From Maribacter flavus (GTDB taxonomy: Bacteria > Bacteroidota > Bacteroidia > Flavobacteriales > Flavobacteriaceae): a stretch of 64,000 nucleotides of DNA. Of this stretch, positions 51,214 through 54,348 are shown in pieces. Position 1 is the first letter of the stretch. Each line of letters starts with the position of its first letter. Position numbers and translations under genes: made by a program. The stretch spans positions 496,001 through 560,000 of the forward strand of contig NZ_VUOE01000002.1 of assembly GCF_008386635.1 (NCBI RefSeq). Reading direction: 5' to 3'. The notes under the pieces were generated by a model. It worked only from the letters and a program-made list of their open reading frames with translations, did not search any database and was not told where the DNA came from.

Positions 51214-51858
51214 TCAGGGGGCCAAAGTATAGCCATAAACAGACAGCAGAATACCAATAAAACCGGAAATTATCATACAGATGATAAAGGTTTTTTGCAG
51301 CAATGGATTGTCGTAAATTATAATACAGACCGCTCCAAGTACAATGCTTATTTGGAAAAAGAGCATACCCAGATCGAATTTTTTCGTCGCAAAGTCGTAT
51401 TCCTCCGCCAGGGCTTCCCATTCGTTGATTCCCACAATCTTGCCCATTTCTCCATCCAGGTCTTGGGCCCATTCTTCTTGTGGAATGTTTGCCGAGCCCA
51501 CTAAAATTTCCGTTTTTTCCGATGCGTACTTTTTTATTTGCTTTTCTACGTTAGCGATTTTTACCTGTATGCTTCCAATATTTTCCTCTTGTACGATGCC
51601 TGTTTCCAACAGGGCCTGTAGATTGTCCAGCTCACTTTCCTTTAAGCTTTCCTTGATGCTCTTGGATTGGTACCAGCTGGAGTAGTTCACCACTTTATTG
51701 TGGGCGATCATCATTTCCTCTTCCAGTTCCCCGTTGATCATTTGGGATATGGCCATCAAGGCGGCAAAAAAGGCGATCAGCACACCGCCAACCGCTTCCG
51801 CTCTTTCTGATGCTACCGAAACCTCAACCGTATCCGTATTTTTTTTAGTCTGTAACAT
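51214..51858 (-). CDS. DUF4337 membrane protein
   Basis: 214 residues. One membrane helix near 22-42 (AEAVGGVLIAFFAALMAIS), a coiled-coil-like middle (KESLKESELDNLQALLETG..., VEKQIKKYASEKTEIL), and two helices near 168-187 and 192-212. This matches DUF4337, of unknown function. Its start overlaps the end of rdgB by 14 bases on the same strand, so they form a transcriptional unit. Confidence 0.8.
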   Translation of the reverse strand: MLQTKKNTDTVEVSVASERAEAVGGVLIAFFAALMAISQMINGELEEEMMIAHNKVVNYSSWYQSKSIKESLKESELDNLQALLETGIVQEENIGSIQVKIANVEKQIKKYASEKTEILVGSANIPQEEWAQDLDGEMGKIVGINEWEALAEEYDFATKKFDLGMLFFQISIVLGAVCIIIYDNPLLQKTFIICMIISGFIGILLSVYGYTLAP

Positions 51859-52432
51859 GGTGGTCGTTTAAATAGGTTATGAGTTTTGAAAAGGCCTTTC
51901 CCCGGTGGCTTATCTCGTTTTTTATATCCAACGGAAGTTCCGCAAAGGTTTGGTCATATCCATTGGGTCTAAATATGGGGTCGTAGCCAAATCCCTTATC
52001 GCCTTTTTTGGAAGTGGTGATTTCCCCTTCAACAACACCCTCGAAAAACTGTGTCCTTCCTTCTAGGTTTAAGGATATAACGGTCTTGAAATGTGCGGAA
52101 CGATTGTCTTTGTCCGCTAGGTTTTTCAATAGTTTGTCCATATTGGCATGCGCATCGTTTCGTATTCCTGCGTATCTGGCGGAATAGACACCAGGCTCGC
52201 CGTTAAGAGCGTCCACTAATAGGCCTGTATCATCCGCGAAACAGGATAAATTGTAGTTTTGGTAAACGTAATCCGACTTCAGTTTTGCGTTGCCTTCCAA
52301 GGTGTTTTCGGTTTCAGGAATATCCTCCGTAATACCCAAATCTTTCAATGAAACCAGGGTTATCCCCTTAGGAAGTAATTGCTGTACTTCCTTTACTTTG
52401 TTCTGGTTGTGCGTGGCAAAAACAAGTTTCAT
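51845..52432 (-). CDS. rdgB: XTP/dITP diphosphatase (non-canonical purine NTP pyrophosphatase)
   Basis: 195 residues from ATG 52432; a longer start at 52495 adds 21 residues before the invariant first strand. Motifs: MKLVFATHNQNKVKEVQQLL, CFADDTGLLVDALNGEPGVYSARYAG, GDKGFGYDPIF and SHRGKAF. It removes ITP/XTP and their deoxy forms from nucleotide pools. Adjacent to and divergent from the methyltransferase gene. It overlaps DUF4337 by 14 bases. Confidence 0.95.
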   Translation of the reverse strand: MKLVFATHNQNKVKEVQQLLPKGITLVSLKDLGITEDIPETENTLEGNAKLKSDYVYQNYNLSCFADDTGLLVDALNGEPGVYSARYAGIRNDAHANMDKLLKNLADKDNRSAHFKTVISLNLEGRTQFFEGVVEGEITTSKKGDKGFGYDPIFRPNGYDQTFAELPLDIKNEISHRGKAFSKLITYLNDHHVTD

Positions 52433-52494
52433 TTCTCCGTATTTAATCCCCTGATTTATGGGGCAAAGAGCGTCAAAAATAGTAATTTTATCCA

Positions 52495-52947
52495 ATGGAA
52501 TTAAAAGTGCCCCCCGTATTGGTTTTTTTAAGTTTCGGATTGATCATGTATTTGGTTGGCCTTTTCTTACCCGTAGGTTATTTCGATTTTTTTGGACGTT
52601 TCCTGCTCGCAAAAATCCTTGTTGTTTTGGCCGGATTCATGGGTTTGGTTTCGGTCTACCAATTTTTTAAAAGAAAAACTTCGGTAGACCCGATGCATCC
52701 AGAAAAAGTGAACCAATTGGTTACTTCCGGTCTATATAAATATTCCAGAAATCCTATGTATCTGGCGCTTTTGATGGTTCTACTCGGTTTTGGGCTCTAT
52801 CTGGGAAATGCCTTTAATACCCTGGTCGCTGCCGGTTTTGTGGCGTATATGAATCGGTTTCAGATTATACCGGAGGAAAGGATACTCTTAGCCAAGTTTG
52901 GAAACAAATTCAAATCCTACCAAATCGCCACGCGAAGGTGGTTTTAA
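52495..52947 (+). CDS. ICMT/PEMT-type membrane methyltransferase
   Basis: 150 residues with about four membrane helices. The SAM/active-site signature LVTSGLYKYSRNPMYLALLM, followed by EERILLAKFGNKFKSYQIATRRW, identifies the isoprenylcysteine carboxyl methyltransferase-like family. The bacterial substrate is unknown. Divergent from rdgB, with the start close to that gene's alternative start. Monocistronic. Confidence 0.85.
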   Translation: MELKVPPVLVFLSFGLIMYLVGLFLPVGYFDFFGRFLLAKILVVLAGFMGLVSVYQFFKRKTSVDPMHPEKVNQLVTSGLYKYSRNPMYLALLMVLLGFGLYLGNAFNTLVAAGFVAYMNRFQIIPEERILLAKFGNKFKSYQIATRRWF

Positions 52948-52996
52948 TATCCCCTTTTGATTATCGTAATAATTAATATGCATAAATATTATCTAT

Positions 52997-53023
52997 TTAG
53001 CTTATAATTTAATATATTAGCTT
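52997..53023 (+). promoter_or_regulatory. Direct repeat TTAGCTT upstream of satD, candidate operator/promoter
   Basis: TTAGCTT occurs at 52997-53003 and 53017-53023, start to start 20 bases, about two helical turns. TAGCTTTT (53018-53025) is one mismatch from TAnnTTTG, so the second copy overlaps the -7 box of the satD promoter. The downstream protein has a helix-turn-helix, which makes autoregulation plausible. Confidence 0.4.
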
Positions 53024-53038
53024 TTTAAATAATATAGT

Positions 53039-53644
53039 ATGATAGCGATTATCACGGGTGATATCATTAACTCCGAAGGGCATCAATCCTCTGAATGGAT
53101 AGACATTCTCAAAACATATTTTACACGTTTTGGGCCATCGCCCATGAACTGGGAAATTTATAGAGGAGACGAGTTTCAATTAAAGGTCACCAAGGATAAT
53201 GCCTTGTTGACCGCCATACACATTAAAGCCCTAATAAAATCCGTGAAGGACCTGGATGTCCGAATGGGAATTGGTATCGGGCTGGAAACGTATATAGGTT
53301 CTGGGGTCAGCGAATCCAACGGTCCGGCCTATCAACGTTCGGGCCGCAAATTGGAATCCATTAAGGATGGAAAGGTGAATTTAAGTATCGCCACGGGAAA
53401 CGAATTTTATGACAAGACCCTCAATTTAATGCTGCAATTGGCGCTAGATTTTATGGACAGCTGGAGTGTGGTATCAGCAGAGATAATCGCCTTGGTCTTG
53501 GAGAATCCAAAGGCTTCCCAAAAGGAAATCGCTAAAAAATTAGGCATAAAACAATCCGCAGTAAGTCAACGGTTAAAACGCGCCCGACTTGATCTGGTCA
53601 TGGATTTATTGAACTATTATGAACAGGCAATAAAAGAAGTATGA
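53039..53644 (+). CDS. SatD-like protein with C-terminal helix-turn-helix
   Basis: 201 residues. The N-terminal SatD-type domain has IAIITGDIINSE, YRGDEFQLKV and VRMGIGIGLETY, recalling the nucleotidyl-cyclase-like fold of the family. The C-terminal part (about 160-195) is a helix-turn-helix: NPKASQKEIAKKLGIKQSAVSQRLKRARLDLV. SatD was named from streptococcal acid-tolerance loci; its activity is unknown. The ATG of the next gene overlaps its stop as ATGA, so the pair is translationally coupled. Confidence 0.8.
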   Translation: MIAIITGDIINSEGHQSSEWIDILKTYFTRFGPSPMNWEIYRGDEFQLKVTKDNALLTAIHIKALIKSVKDLDVRMGIGIGLETYIGSGVSESNGPAYQRSGRKLESIKDGKVNLSIATGNEFYDKTLNLMLQLALDFMDSWSVVSAEIIALVLENPKASQKEIAKKLGIKQSAVSQRLKRARLDLVMDLLNYYEQAIKEV

Positions 53645-54348
53645 CCATGCAGCTATTCGTGAAATTGTTATTGGCCCATCTCATTGGGGATTTTATGCTG
53701 CAACCTACCAAATGGGTCATACATAAAGAGGCCAATAAAGCGGCCTCCAAGTTCCTTTATCTGCATGTCCTTGTCCACTTTATGCTCTACATGCTATTTC
53801 TTTGGGATTTTCAAAAGTGGTGGATGGCACTTGTTTTATCCATGGGCCATCTTGTCATAGATTTGGCGAAGTTATACGTAAACCCACTTTTTAAAAATAA
53901 AAGCAACCCGTTTTTCCTGGATCAAATTCTCCATATTTTGACCATTTATGTTTTTGTGTATTTTACAAATTTGCACGAACAGACCATGGCACTAATCCAG
54001 GGATTGGATTGGCCTTTGGTATTGGCCATTGTGTTCGTTACAACACCTTCGGCTATTATTATGGGCAAGCTGTTGGAGGGTATGTCCAACCAAATAAATA
54101 CGGACCATAAATCATTGCCCAATGCCGGTACCTATATAGGCATCATCGAAAGATTGTTCGTGCTTACCTTTATCATCATAGGTAGGTGGGAAGCCATCGG
54201 ACTTTTGATTACCGCAAAATCTGTGTTTAGGTTCAACGATTTAAAGGAAAGCAACAGCAGAAAGCTTACGGAATATATTCTGATAGGTACTTTGGTCAGT
54301 TTTGGACTGGCGATTTTGACGGGACTCTTATATATAAGTTATACTTAA
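53641..54348 (+). CDS. DUF3307 integral membrane protein
   Basis: 235 residues with about six membrane helices. The start LFVKLLLAHLIGDFMLQPTKWV is the DUF3307 signature, with HVLVHFMLYM and GHLVIDLAKLYV adding His and Asp inside membrane helices. The function is unknown. It is coupled to the SatD-like gene through ATGA. As I recall, the two families occur together in many bacteria, which suggests a two-component module of a cytoplasmic regulator and a membrane partner. Confidence 0.82.
   Translation: MTMQLFVKLLLAHLIGDFMLQPTKWVIHKEANKAASKFLYLHVLVHFMLYMLFLWDFQKWWMALVLSMGHLVIDLAKLYVNPLFKNKSNPFFLDQILHILTIYVFVYFTNLHEQTMALIQGLDWPLVLAIVFVTTPSAIIMGKLLEGMSNQINTDHKSLPNAGTYIGIIERLFVLTFIIIGRWEAIGLLITAKSVFRFNDLKESNSRKLTEYILIGTLVSFGLAILTGLLYISYT

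Follow-up and report, generated by a model that had tools for sequence, protein, structure and literature searches.

The satD Locus of Maribacter flavus

Toward the 3′ end of the DNA stretch analyzed here (64,000 nt of the Maribacter flavus contig NZ_VUOE01000002.1, hereafter the window) lies a satD gene, followed on the same strand by the gene of a DUF3307-type membrane protein. The two genes overlap by ATGA at 53641–53644, and three dyads precede satD (Table 1). An earlier note, made from the letters alone, had described a SatD–helix-turn-helix (HTH) protein with a cyclase-like N-domain, coupled through ATGA to a DUF3307 membrane protein with buried His and Asp residues and preceded by duplicated TTAGCTT sites, and had proposed a self-regulated module. 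The genes, the domains and the overlap were all recovered in this study, while the repeat unit had been misread; as to the interpretation, self-regulation, the cyclase-like fold and the co-occurrence of the two genes gained support, and TTAGCTT as the repeated unit did not.

The nearest SatD relatives were found at 27 loci (L031–L057; 60–91% identity) of Maribacter, Arenibacter, Eudoraea and two unclassified Flavobacteriaceae. In all 27, the neighbors were kept: rdgB-like and PEMT genes flank the locus to one side (the former at 51845–52495 on the minus strand of the window) and a serA-like gene flanks it to the opposite side. In 22 of them an alpha/beta hydrolase gene was also kept in between. 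Since these neighbors are kept, the satD locus of the Maribacter lineage looks vertically inherited.

Table 1. Coordinates of genes, domains and dyads at the satD locus (positions in the window).
Feature	Position	Strand	Description
Dyad 1 (weak)	52959–52978		GATTATC-N6-ATTAATA; 28 bp upstream of dyad 2; phase taken from relatives
Dyad 2	52987–53006		TATTATC-N6-GCTTATA; differs at one position from TATTAGC-N6-GCTTATA; the first TTAGCTT lies in its right half
Dyad 3	53015–53034		TATTAGC-N6-AATAATA; left half holds the second TTAGCTT; ends four bases before the ATG
satD ORF	53039–53644	+	201 aa; predicted palm domain (about residues 1–120) plus HTH; PF16264, 51.7 bits
Asp8 codon	53060–53062	+	End of strand 1; invariant (125/125); aligns to an Asp of Ma1120
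Gly43-Asp44 codons in RGDEF	53165–53170	+	Hairpin between strands 2 and 3; D44 in 125/125, G43 in 114/125
SatD HTH region, residues 144–200	53468–53638	+	HTH_24 match and model; recognition helix covaries with half-sites
DUF3307-type membrane protein ORF	53641–54348	+	235 aa; PF11750; alternative start ATG at 53647
DUF3307 domain proper, residues 5–112	53653–53976	+	Optional part; PF11750, 87 bits
Unnamed C-terminal membrane domain, residues 158–235	54112–54345	+	Motif GxxER...AxK...R...(E/D)YxLxG...S; constant SatD partner

SatD Combines a Predicted Palm Domain With an HTH

In profile searches, the window protein matched the SatD family PF16264, named after the Streptococcus mutans sat operon, well above its curated cut-off (51.7 vs. 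29 bits), and its C-terminus matched HTH_24 (34.9 bits, residues 148–181), as the SatD–HTH assignment of the earlier note had it. PF16264 was also matched at E ≤ 1 by 51 of 55 aligned SatD members. Counts out of 125 below refer to the SatD ORFs that are 180 aa or longer (shorter ones, such as L004 and the broken L130, were left out). Of 13 plasmid records with SatD, 8 were fetched.

An AlphaFold2 model built from 55 sequences (pLDDT 96.2, pTM 0.92) predicted the palm order beta-alpha-beta-beta-alpha-beta. Among the matches listed by VIA, the best neighbor of the model was GTP cyclohydrolase III (Z 10.0, rmsd 2.8 over 108 residues), followed by adenylyl cyclase Rv1625c (Z 9.6), Cas10/Cmr2 (Z 9.4) and a GGDEF domain (Z 8.8), and the best 50 listed, with Z of 8.0–10.0, were palm-type enzymes as judged from their titles. 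Foldseek with the same model returned no match at E ≤ 0.001, the best being 2.0e-3. A sequence-profile search pointed to class III cyclases with weak scores, namely Ma1120 (E 0.023, profile positions 3–90) and Rv1900c (E 0.029, profile positions 1–99), and unrelated 14-3-3 proteins reached a similar score (E 0.033 vs. 0.023); in its alignment, D8 and D44 of SatD fell on Asp residues of Ma1120.

Among the SatD proteins, D8 and D44 were each present in 125/125, S12 in 124/125 and Q47 in 123/125; both metal-type Asp residues stand at the palm positions, at the end of strand 1 and in the hairpin, in every SatD examined. This agrees with the cyclase-like N-domain that had been proposed, at the level of a predicted structure. 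Variation of the catalytic-like residues had been named as evidence against it; the catalytic-like Asp residues proved to be conserved. The model together with the invariant Asp pair therefore makes a putative metal or nucleotide site likely in the SatD palm domain, which is predicted to be of the GGDEF/class III cyclase/Cas10 kind. The GG(D/E)EF signature itself was absent: the window protein carries RGDEF, residue 42 is R or L in 121/125, and residue 45 is E in 74/125 and S in 43/125. Judged by residue spacing in class III cyclases, residue 103 would correspond to the transition-state Arg and residue 99 to the Asn; the former was R in only 56/125, and the six commonest residues at the latter were Q, T, V, I, H and A, without Asn.

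The Constant Partner of SatD Is an Unnamed C-Terminal Membrane Domain

The membrane protein of the window matched PF11750 over residues 5–112 with 87 bits against a cut-off of 23. DUF3307 equals its N-terminal half, and the C-terminal half lies outside the Pfam match. Ten residues, H13, D17, Q21, H42, H70, D74, K77, D94, Q95 and H98, were invariant in 35 aligned DUF3307-type proteins, which bears out the His and Asp residues noticed earlier. In the same 35 proteins, invariant columns were more numerous in the C-terminal stretch than in the Pfam domain. Downstream of many other satD genes lie proteins of about 100 aa that are related only to this C-terminal stretch (hhalign E 6.8e-8, residues 158–236), or 245-aa proteins with a different N-terminus and a related C-terminus (hhalign E 1.2e-21). 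None of seven scanned short or 245-aa partners, nor L018, had a Pfam match above cut-off.

The C-terminal domain was encoded directly 3′ of satD and on the same strand at 121 of the 125 SatD ORFs when scored with a combined model, whose training set included part of these loci. A less circular model, made from DUF3307-type proteins only, recognized 19 short Bacteroidota partners with E of 7e-7 to 2e-3 and the Sphingomonas and Agrobacterium partners with E of 4e-14 and 6e-14, these E-values referring to a small ORF set. The partners of 124 distinct SatD ORFs comprised 92 with DUF3307 and the C-terminal domain, 21 short ones and 7 long ones without intact DUF3307, and 4 SatD ORFs had none. DUF3307 was not found in the partner at 28 of the 124 that retained the C-terminal domain; one of these partners, that of L119, is a DUF3307 gene with an interruption. 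In most loci the two genes overlap or are closely spaced, and the pairing was kept in loci of Salinivibrio, Vibrio, Klebsiella, Pseudoalteromonas, Sphingomonas, Agrobacterium and Halorientalis. Co-occurrence of the two genes, suggested earlier as a check, was therefore confirmed, and the assignment of DUF3307 as the partner needs refinement: the Pfam match is real, but DUF3307 is optional, and the constant SatD partner is the unnamed C-terminal domain.

Of the four SatD ORFs without partner, L028 and L131 are cut by the end of the sequence obtained, and in L026 (G209) and L129 (G229) a kinase-like ORF with a P-loop motif, recognized by eye, takes the place of the membrane partner. C-terminal domains without SatD upstream occurred in L114, L117 and L120, plus a second reading frame in L106; in L117 (G098) and L120 (G044) the DUF3307 plus C-terminal domain gene adjoins a ThiF/MoeB-like gene (named by eye). 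In L119 (G239, 1390–2223), a stop codon splits the DUF3307-type partner between its DUF3307 and C-terminal parts, and L128 contains a DUF3307 fragment with neither neighbor present. Weak fragments of the C-terminal domain were seen in G238:C2, G143:C2 (at 369006) and G194:C73 in a scan with its profile. Of one set of 247 Bacteroidota genomes scanned for all three, 52 had a match to Pfam SatD, 65 to DUF3307 and 85 to the C-terminal profile, and several satD genes below the Pfam threshold were recognized beside DUF3307.

The C-terminal domain comprises about 80 aa of predicted helices with the invariant charged residues E18, R19 and K41 (numbering of A5), and the model of the partner is all helical with no evident soluble domain. 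Among the matches listed for this helical model, no useful PDB match was present (best Foldseek E 2.5, best VIA Z 6.9), so fold assignment was abandoned; absence from these lists is no evidence for a new fold.

Phased Dyads Precede satD in Many Lineages

Upstream of satD, 20-bp dyads of the form 7-N6-7 repeated in steps of 28 or 29 bp were found at least twice in 79 of 125 loci and at least three times in 57. Such arrays occurred in 0/375 dinucleotide shuffles and in 1/273 regions upstream of other long ORFs from these loci, and they persisted in 58 of 98 loci when the 27 close relatives were excluded. Consistently, perfect 6-N8-6 dyads were present in 41 of 77 non-redundant upstreams vs. 3.8 ± 1.6 in shuffles (leaving out L002–L029, L093, L094 and L129 as well as any upstream sharing 65% identity or more with a kept one), and a spacer of 8 was the best among spacers 3–20 scanned with 6-nt half-sites. 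When steps of 20–40 bp were scanned (n = 125), 28 bp was found in 53 loci, 29 bp in 28 and 20 bp in 14, with at most 3 loci for any other step; the secondary 20-bp spacing is unexplained. The longest array, in L111 (G162), comprises 13 dyads upstream of satD at exactly 29-bp pitch. By the criteria used, 46 of the 125 upstreams, that of the window included, had no array. Dyad counts cover upstreams of at least 120 or 150 bases, start codons were set by a rule that may have misplaced some of them, and the upstream ends were distinct in 122/125 loci.

Counted from the start codon, the closest dyad begins 21–100 bases upstream (median 37, 79 array loci). A -7-like box (TAnnTTTG) overlaps dyads in 21 of the 25 array loci having such a box, which is weak evidence, since much of this region is taken up by the arrays. 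The half-sites were largely uniform inside an array, partly a built-in result because the finder requires cells to resemble the seed (10/14), and different between lineages, with TATTAC, TGTTAC, TATCGG, TATCTGC, ATCAAC, ATTCGA, TATAGC and GAAACA among the lineage half-sites, ATTAGCC in Vibrio and GTTCGCC in Halorientalis.

The dyads of the window are degenerate, and their arrangement is shown by the relatives; the finder scored none there because it needs a near-perfect seed dyad. Both TTAGCTT copies are present, at 52997–53003 and 53017–53023, 20 bases apart, but they are two half-sites of neighboring dyads and not a repeated unit. The pair was kept in only 5 of the 27 close relatives, and inverted repeats of the TATTAGC-N6-GCTTATA form with 28/29-bp pitch were scored in 21. 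TTAGCTT as a direct-repeat operator was therefore rejected. Variation of the repeats, which had been named in advance as counting against the module, did occur to the letter; the heptamers vary among relatives because the real unit is the dyad.

Half-Sites Covary With the SatD Recognition Helix

Similarity of half-sites was correlated with similarity of the recognition helix when palm divergence was partialled out (r 0.345, 0/5000 permutations, n = 58 non-redundant loci), and the correlation with the palm, the helix partialled out, was r 0.104 (396/5000 permutations, n = 58). The set comprised loci with at least two dyads and left out palms at least 90% identical to a kept one, and shared ancestry is incompletely removed by such a partial Mantel test. 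Judged from sequence covariation, the arrays thus lend good support to the self-regulation that the earlier note had proposed.

Eight genomes were searched for the exact dyad of their own lineage: in five of them, 4/6, 4/6, 3/3, 3/4 and 2/3 of the genome-wide sites were located at satD, and in three others 11/11, 3/3 and 3/8. Seven of the eight had none to two sites off satD, all single. The eighth, G112, had 3 of its 8 exact sites at satD, 4 in a second array elsewhere and one single site. The two similar arrays of this genome (L132, 3717–3820 and 14813–14888) stand 11 kb apart and flank a segment that carries, by names given by eye, type I restriction genes and an AbiE-like pair; the arrangement looks as though the array was duplicated on arrival of the segment. 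In the genome of the window, a dyad search was not enriched over control (178/180 vs. 352/337), and a wider SatD regulon was rejected there; among the matches listed for the whole genome, the satD promoter was the only place with at most one mismatch.

Discussion

The findings are best accommodated if SatD senses a nucleotide and acts as an autorepressor that controls its membrane partner, the two genes forming a self-regulating switch, and we consider this reading probable. SatD dimers would use the HTH to bind 20-bp dyads arranged in a phased row, typically of two to four, as the covariation suggests, and may do so cooperatively. The row would occupy the promoter and the 5′ end of the operon, a position from which bound SatD would be expected to repress its own operon. 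The two-Asp metal-type site of the palm would most likely bind a nucleotide–metal ligand that alters DNA binding, and the controlled output would be the coupled membrane protein, with its constant C-terminal domain and DUF3307 as an optional addition. With 10.5 bp to a helical turn, a 28-bp pitch turns each dyad by about two thirds of a turn relative to the one before, and the same face is reached again after three dyads, or 84 bp; SatD dimers arranged as a spiral in which the palm domains meet would make an attractive, if speculative, picture.

Other readings assign different roles to the same parts. SatD might be catalytically active, as a cyclase or nucleotide polymerase, and make a product that directly gates the membrane protein in the manner of OptS and OptE in Panoptes, the HTH merely setting the expression level. 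The palm fold, the invariance of both metal-type Asp residues and the joint encoding of a palm protein and a membrane protein would all suit this, and OptS (9pd0) is a low-ranked Foldseek neighbor of SatD (rank 30, E 0.18), for which the Panoptes study gives Asp6 and Asp57 as putative active-site residues (PMC12657218). However, the variability of SatD residues 99 and 103, on the tentative mapping given above, speaks against a class III active site, and the constant partner, some 80 aa of predicted helices, has no evident soluble domain for binding such a product; we regard an enzymatic SatD as distinctly improbable. The membrane protein could instead be a sensor with feedback rather than an effector with a repressor, its C-terminal domain binding SatD upon a signal of its own and so freeing the promoter; the pairing with the C-terminal domain and not with DUF3307, its invariant E18, R19 and K41, and the overlap or close spacing of the two genes in most loci are compatible with such sequestration, though we regard it as unlikely.

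That SatD activates its operon, or that the arrays serve recombination or replication instead of transcription, seems very unlikely. The second array of G112, with four dyads 11 kb off, is set where two genes end, next to a type I restriction gene, and precedes no gene in the ORF list, as such a role would allow; but across the 79 array loci the nearest dyad keeps to the distance from the start codon reported above, and many lineages have arrays at satD although their half-sites differ.

Parts of the pair resemble known systems. SatD shares the predicted fold and the two invariant Asp with class III cyclases and GGDEF proteins, and RGDEF of the window resembles GGDEF, but it is fused to an HTH, has mostly E or S at residue 45 and does not conserve the putative transition-state positions. 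As in Panoptes, a small palm protein (there the OptS mCpol) is encoded with a membrane protein (OptE; PMC12657218); unlike Panoptes, SatD has an HTH and operator arrays, and its partner lacks an evident soluble sensor domain. The terms SatD and DUF3307 are absent from the main text of both Panoptes papers (PMC12657218 and PMC12657230). Csa3 (CARF-wHTH) also joins a nucleotide-related domain to an HTH, but CARF is not a palm domain, and Csa3 matched only the HTH part of SatD, weakly (E 0.0098). The satD passages of two papers describe no mechanism, fold, operator or membrane partner, and no description of a SatD–DUF3307 system was found in the retrieved parts of the open-licence PMC literature, including PMC11323703, PMC10326533, PMC8504454, PMC12657218, PMC12657230 and PMC8699464.

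An addiction or guard role of the pair is possible. In Streptococcus pyogenes, satD is reported from Tn-seq to be essential across emm1, emm28 and emm49 strains, with no other accessory gene reaching the top quarter of essentiality, yet it was present in 178 of 249 genomes and absent from 71 (PMC11323703). A gene that is essential where present yet missing from 71/249 genomes shows the pattern expected of a repressor or antitoxin with a harmful partner. In a guard or addiction module of this kind, SatD would be a palm nucleotide sensor that, as a helical string of dimers on its array, silences a harmful membrane protein, and a disturbance of SatD or its ligand would release that protein, as a transcriptional counterpart of Panoptes; we put this forward tentatively, as an unlikely prospect. 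The fixed Maribacter locus (27/27), the lack of a phage SatD match with one query and the weak PADLOC matches argue against a mobile or defense reading. In detail, phage carriage was rejected, the SatD query L005 being without match in phages; the Klebsiella DUF3307 protein had no match in phages either, and two viral-contig scans with single-protein queries returned none. The search of PADLOC (2023 copy) yielded only weak or short matches (best E 0.0037). DUF3307-like phage proteins of about 115–131 aa are present in a viral-protein structure library.

DNA of the Klebsiella SatD–DUF3307 pair is carried by plasmid records of 3.8–4.4 kb (six from Klebsiella and one from Escherichia coli; L091, H22–H28), with 5 of 7 matches covering at least 80% of the pair in one place. 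One of these small plasmids has only Rop, an HTH gene and the SatD–DUF3307 pair annotated in 3,892 of its 4,424 bases. Complete E. coli genomes gave no DNA match to the Klebsiella pair, and one E. coli plasmid in PLSDB matched.

Taken together, the paired genes and their arrays in several bacterial groups and a haloarchaeon point to a widespread self-controlling switch. The proposed switch gives a testable identity to two uncharacterized Pfam families and an unnamed membrane domain, with an operator layout that is kept from Flavobacteria to Proteobacteria and a haloarchaeon as its sequence changes with the regulator. If the streptococcal partner is the same, it also suggests why satD of S. pyogenes could be essential and yet absent from 71 of 249 genomes (PMC11323703).
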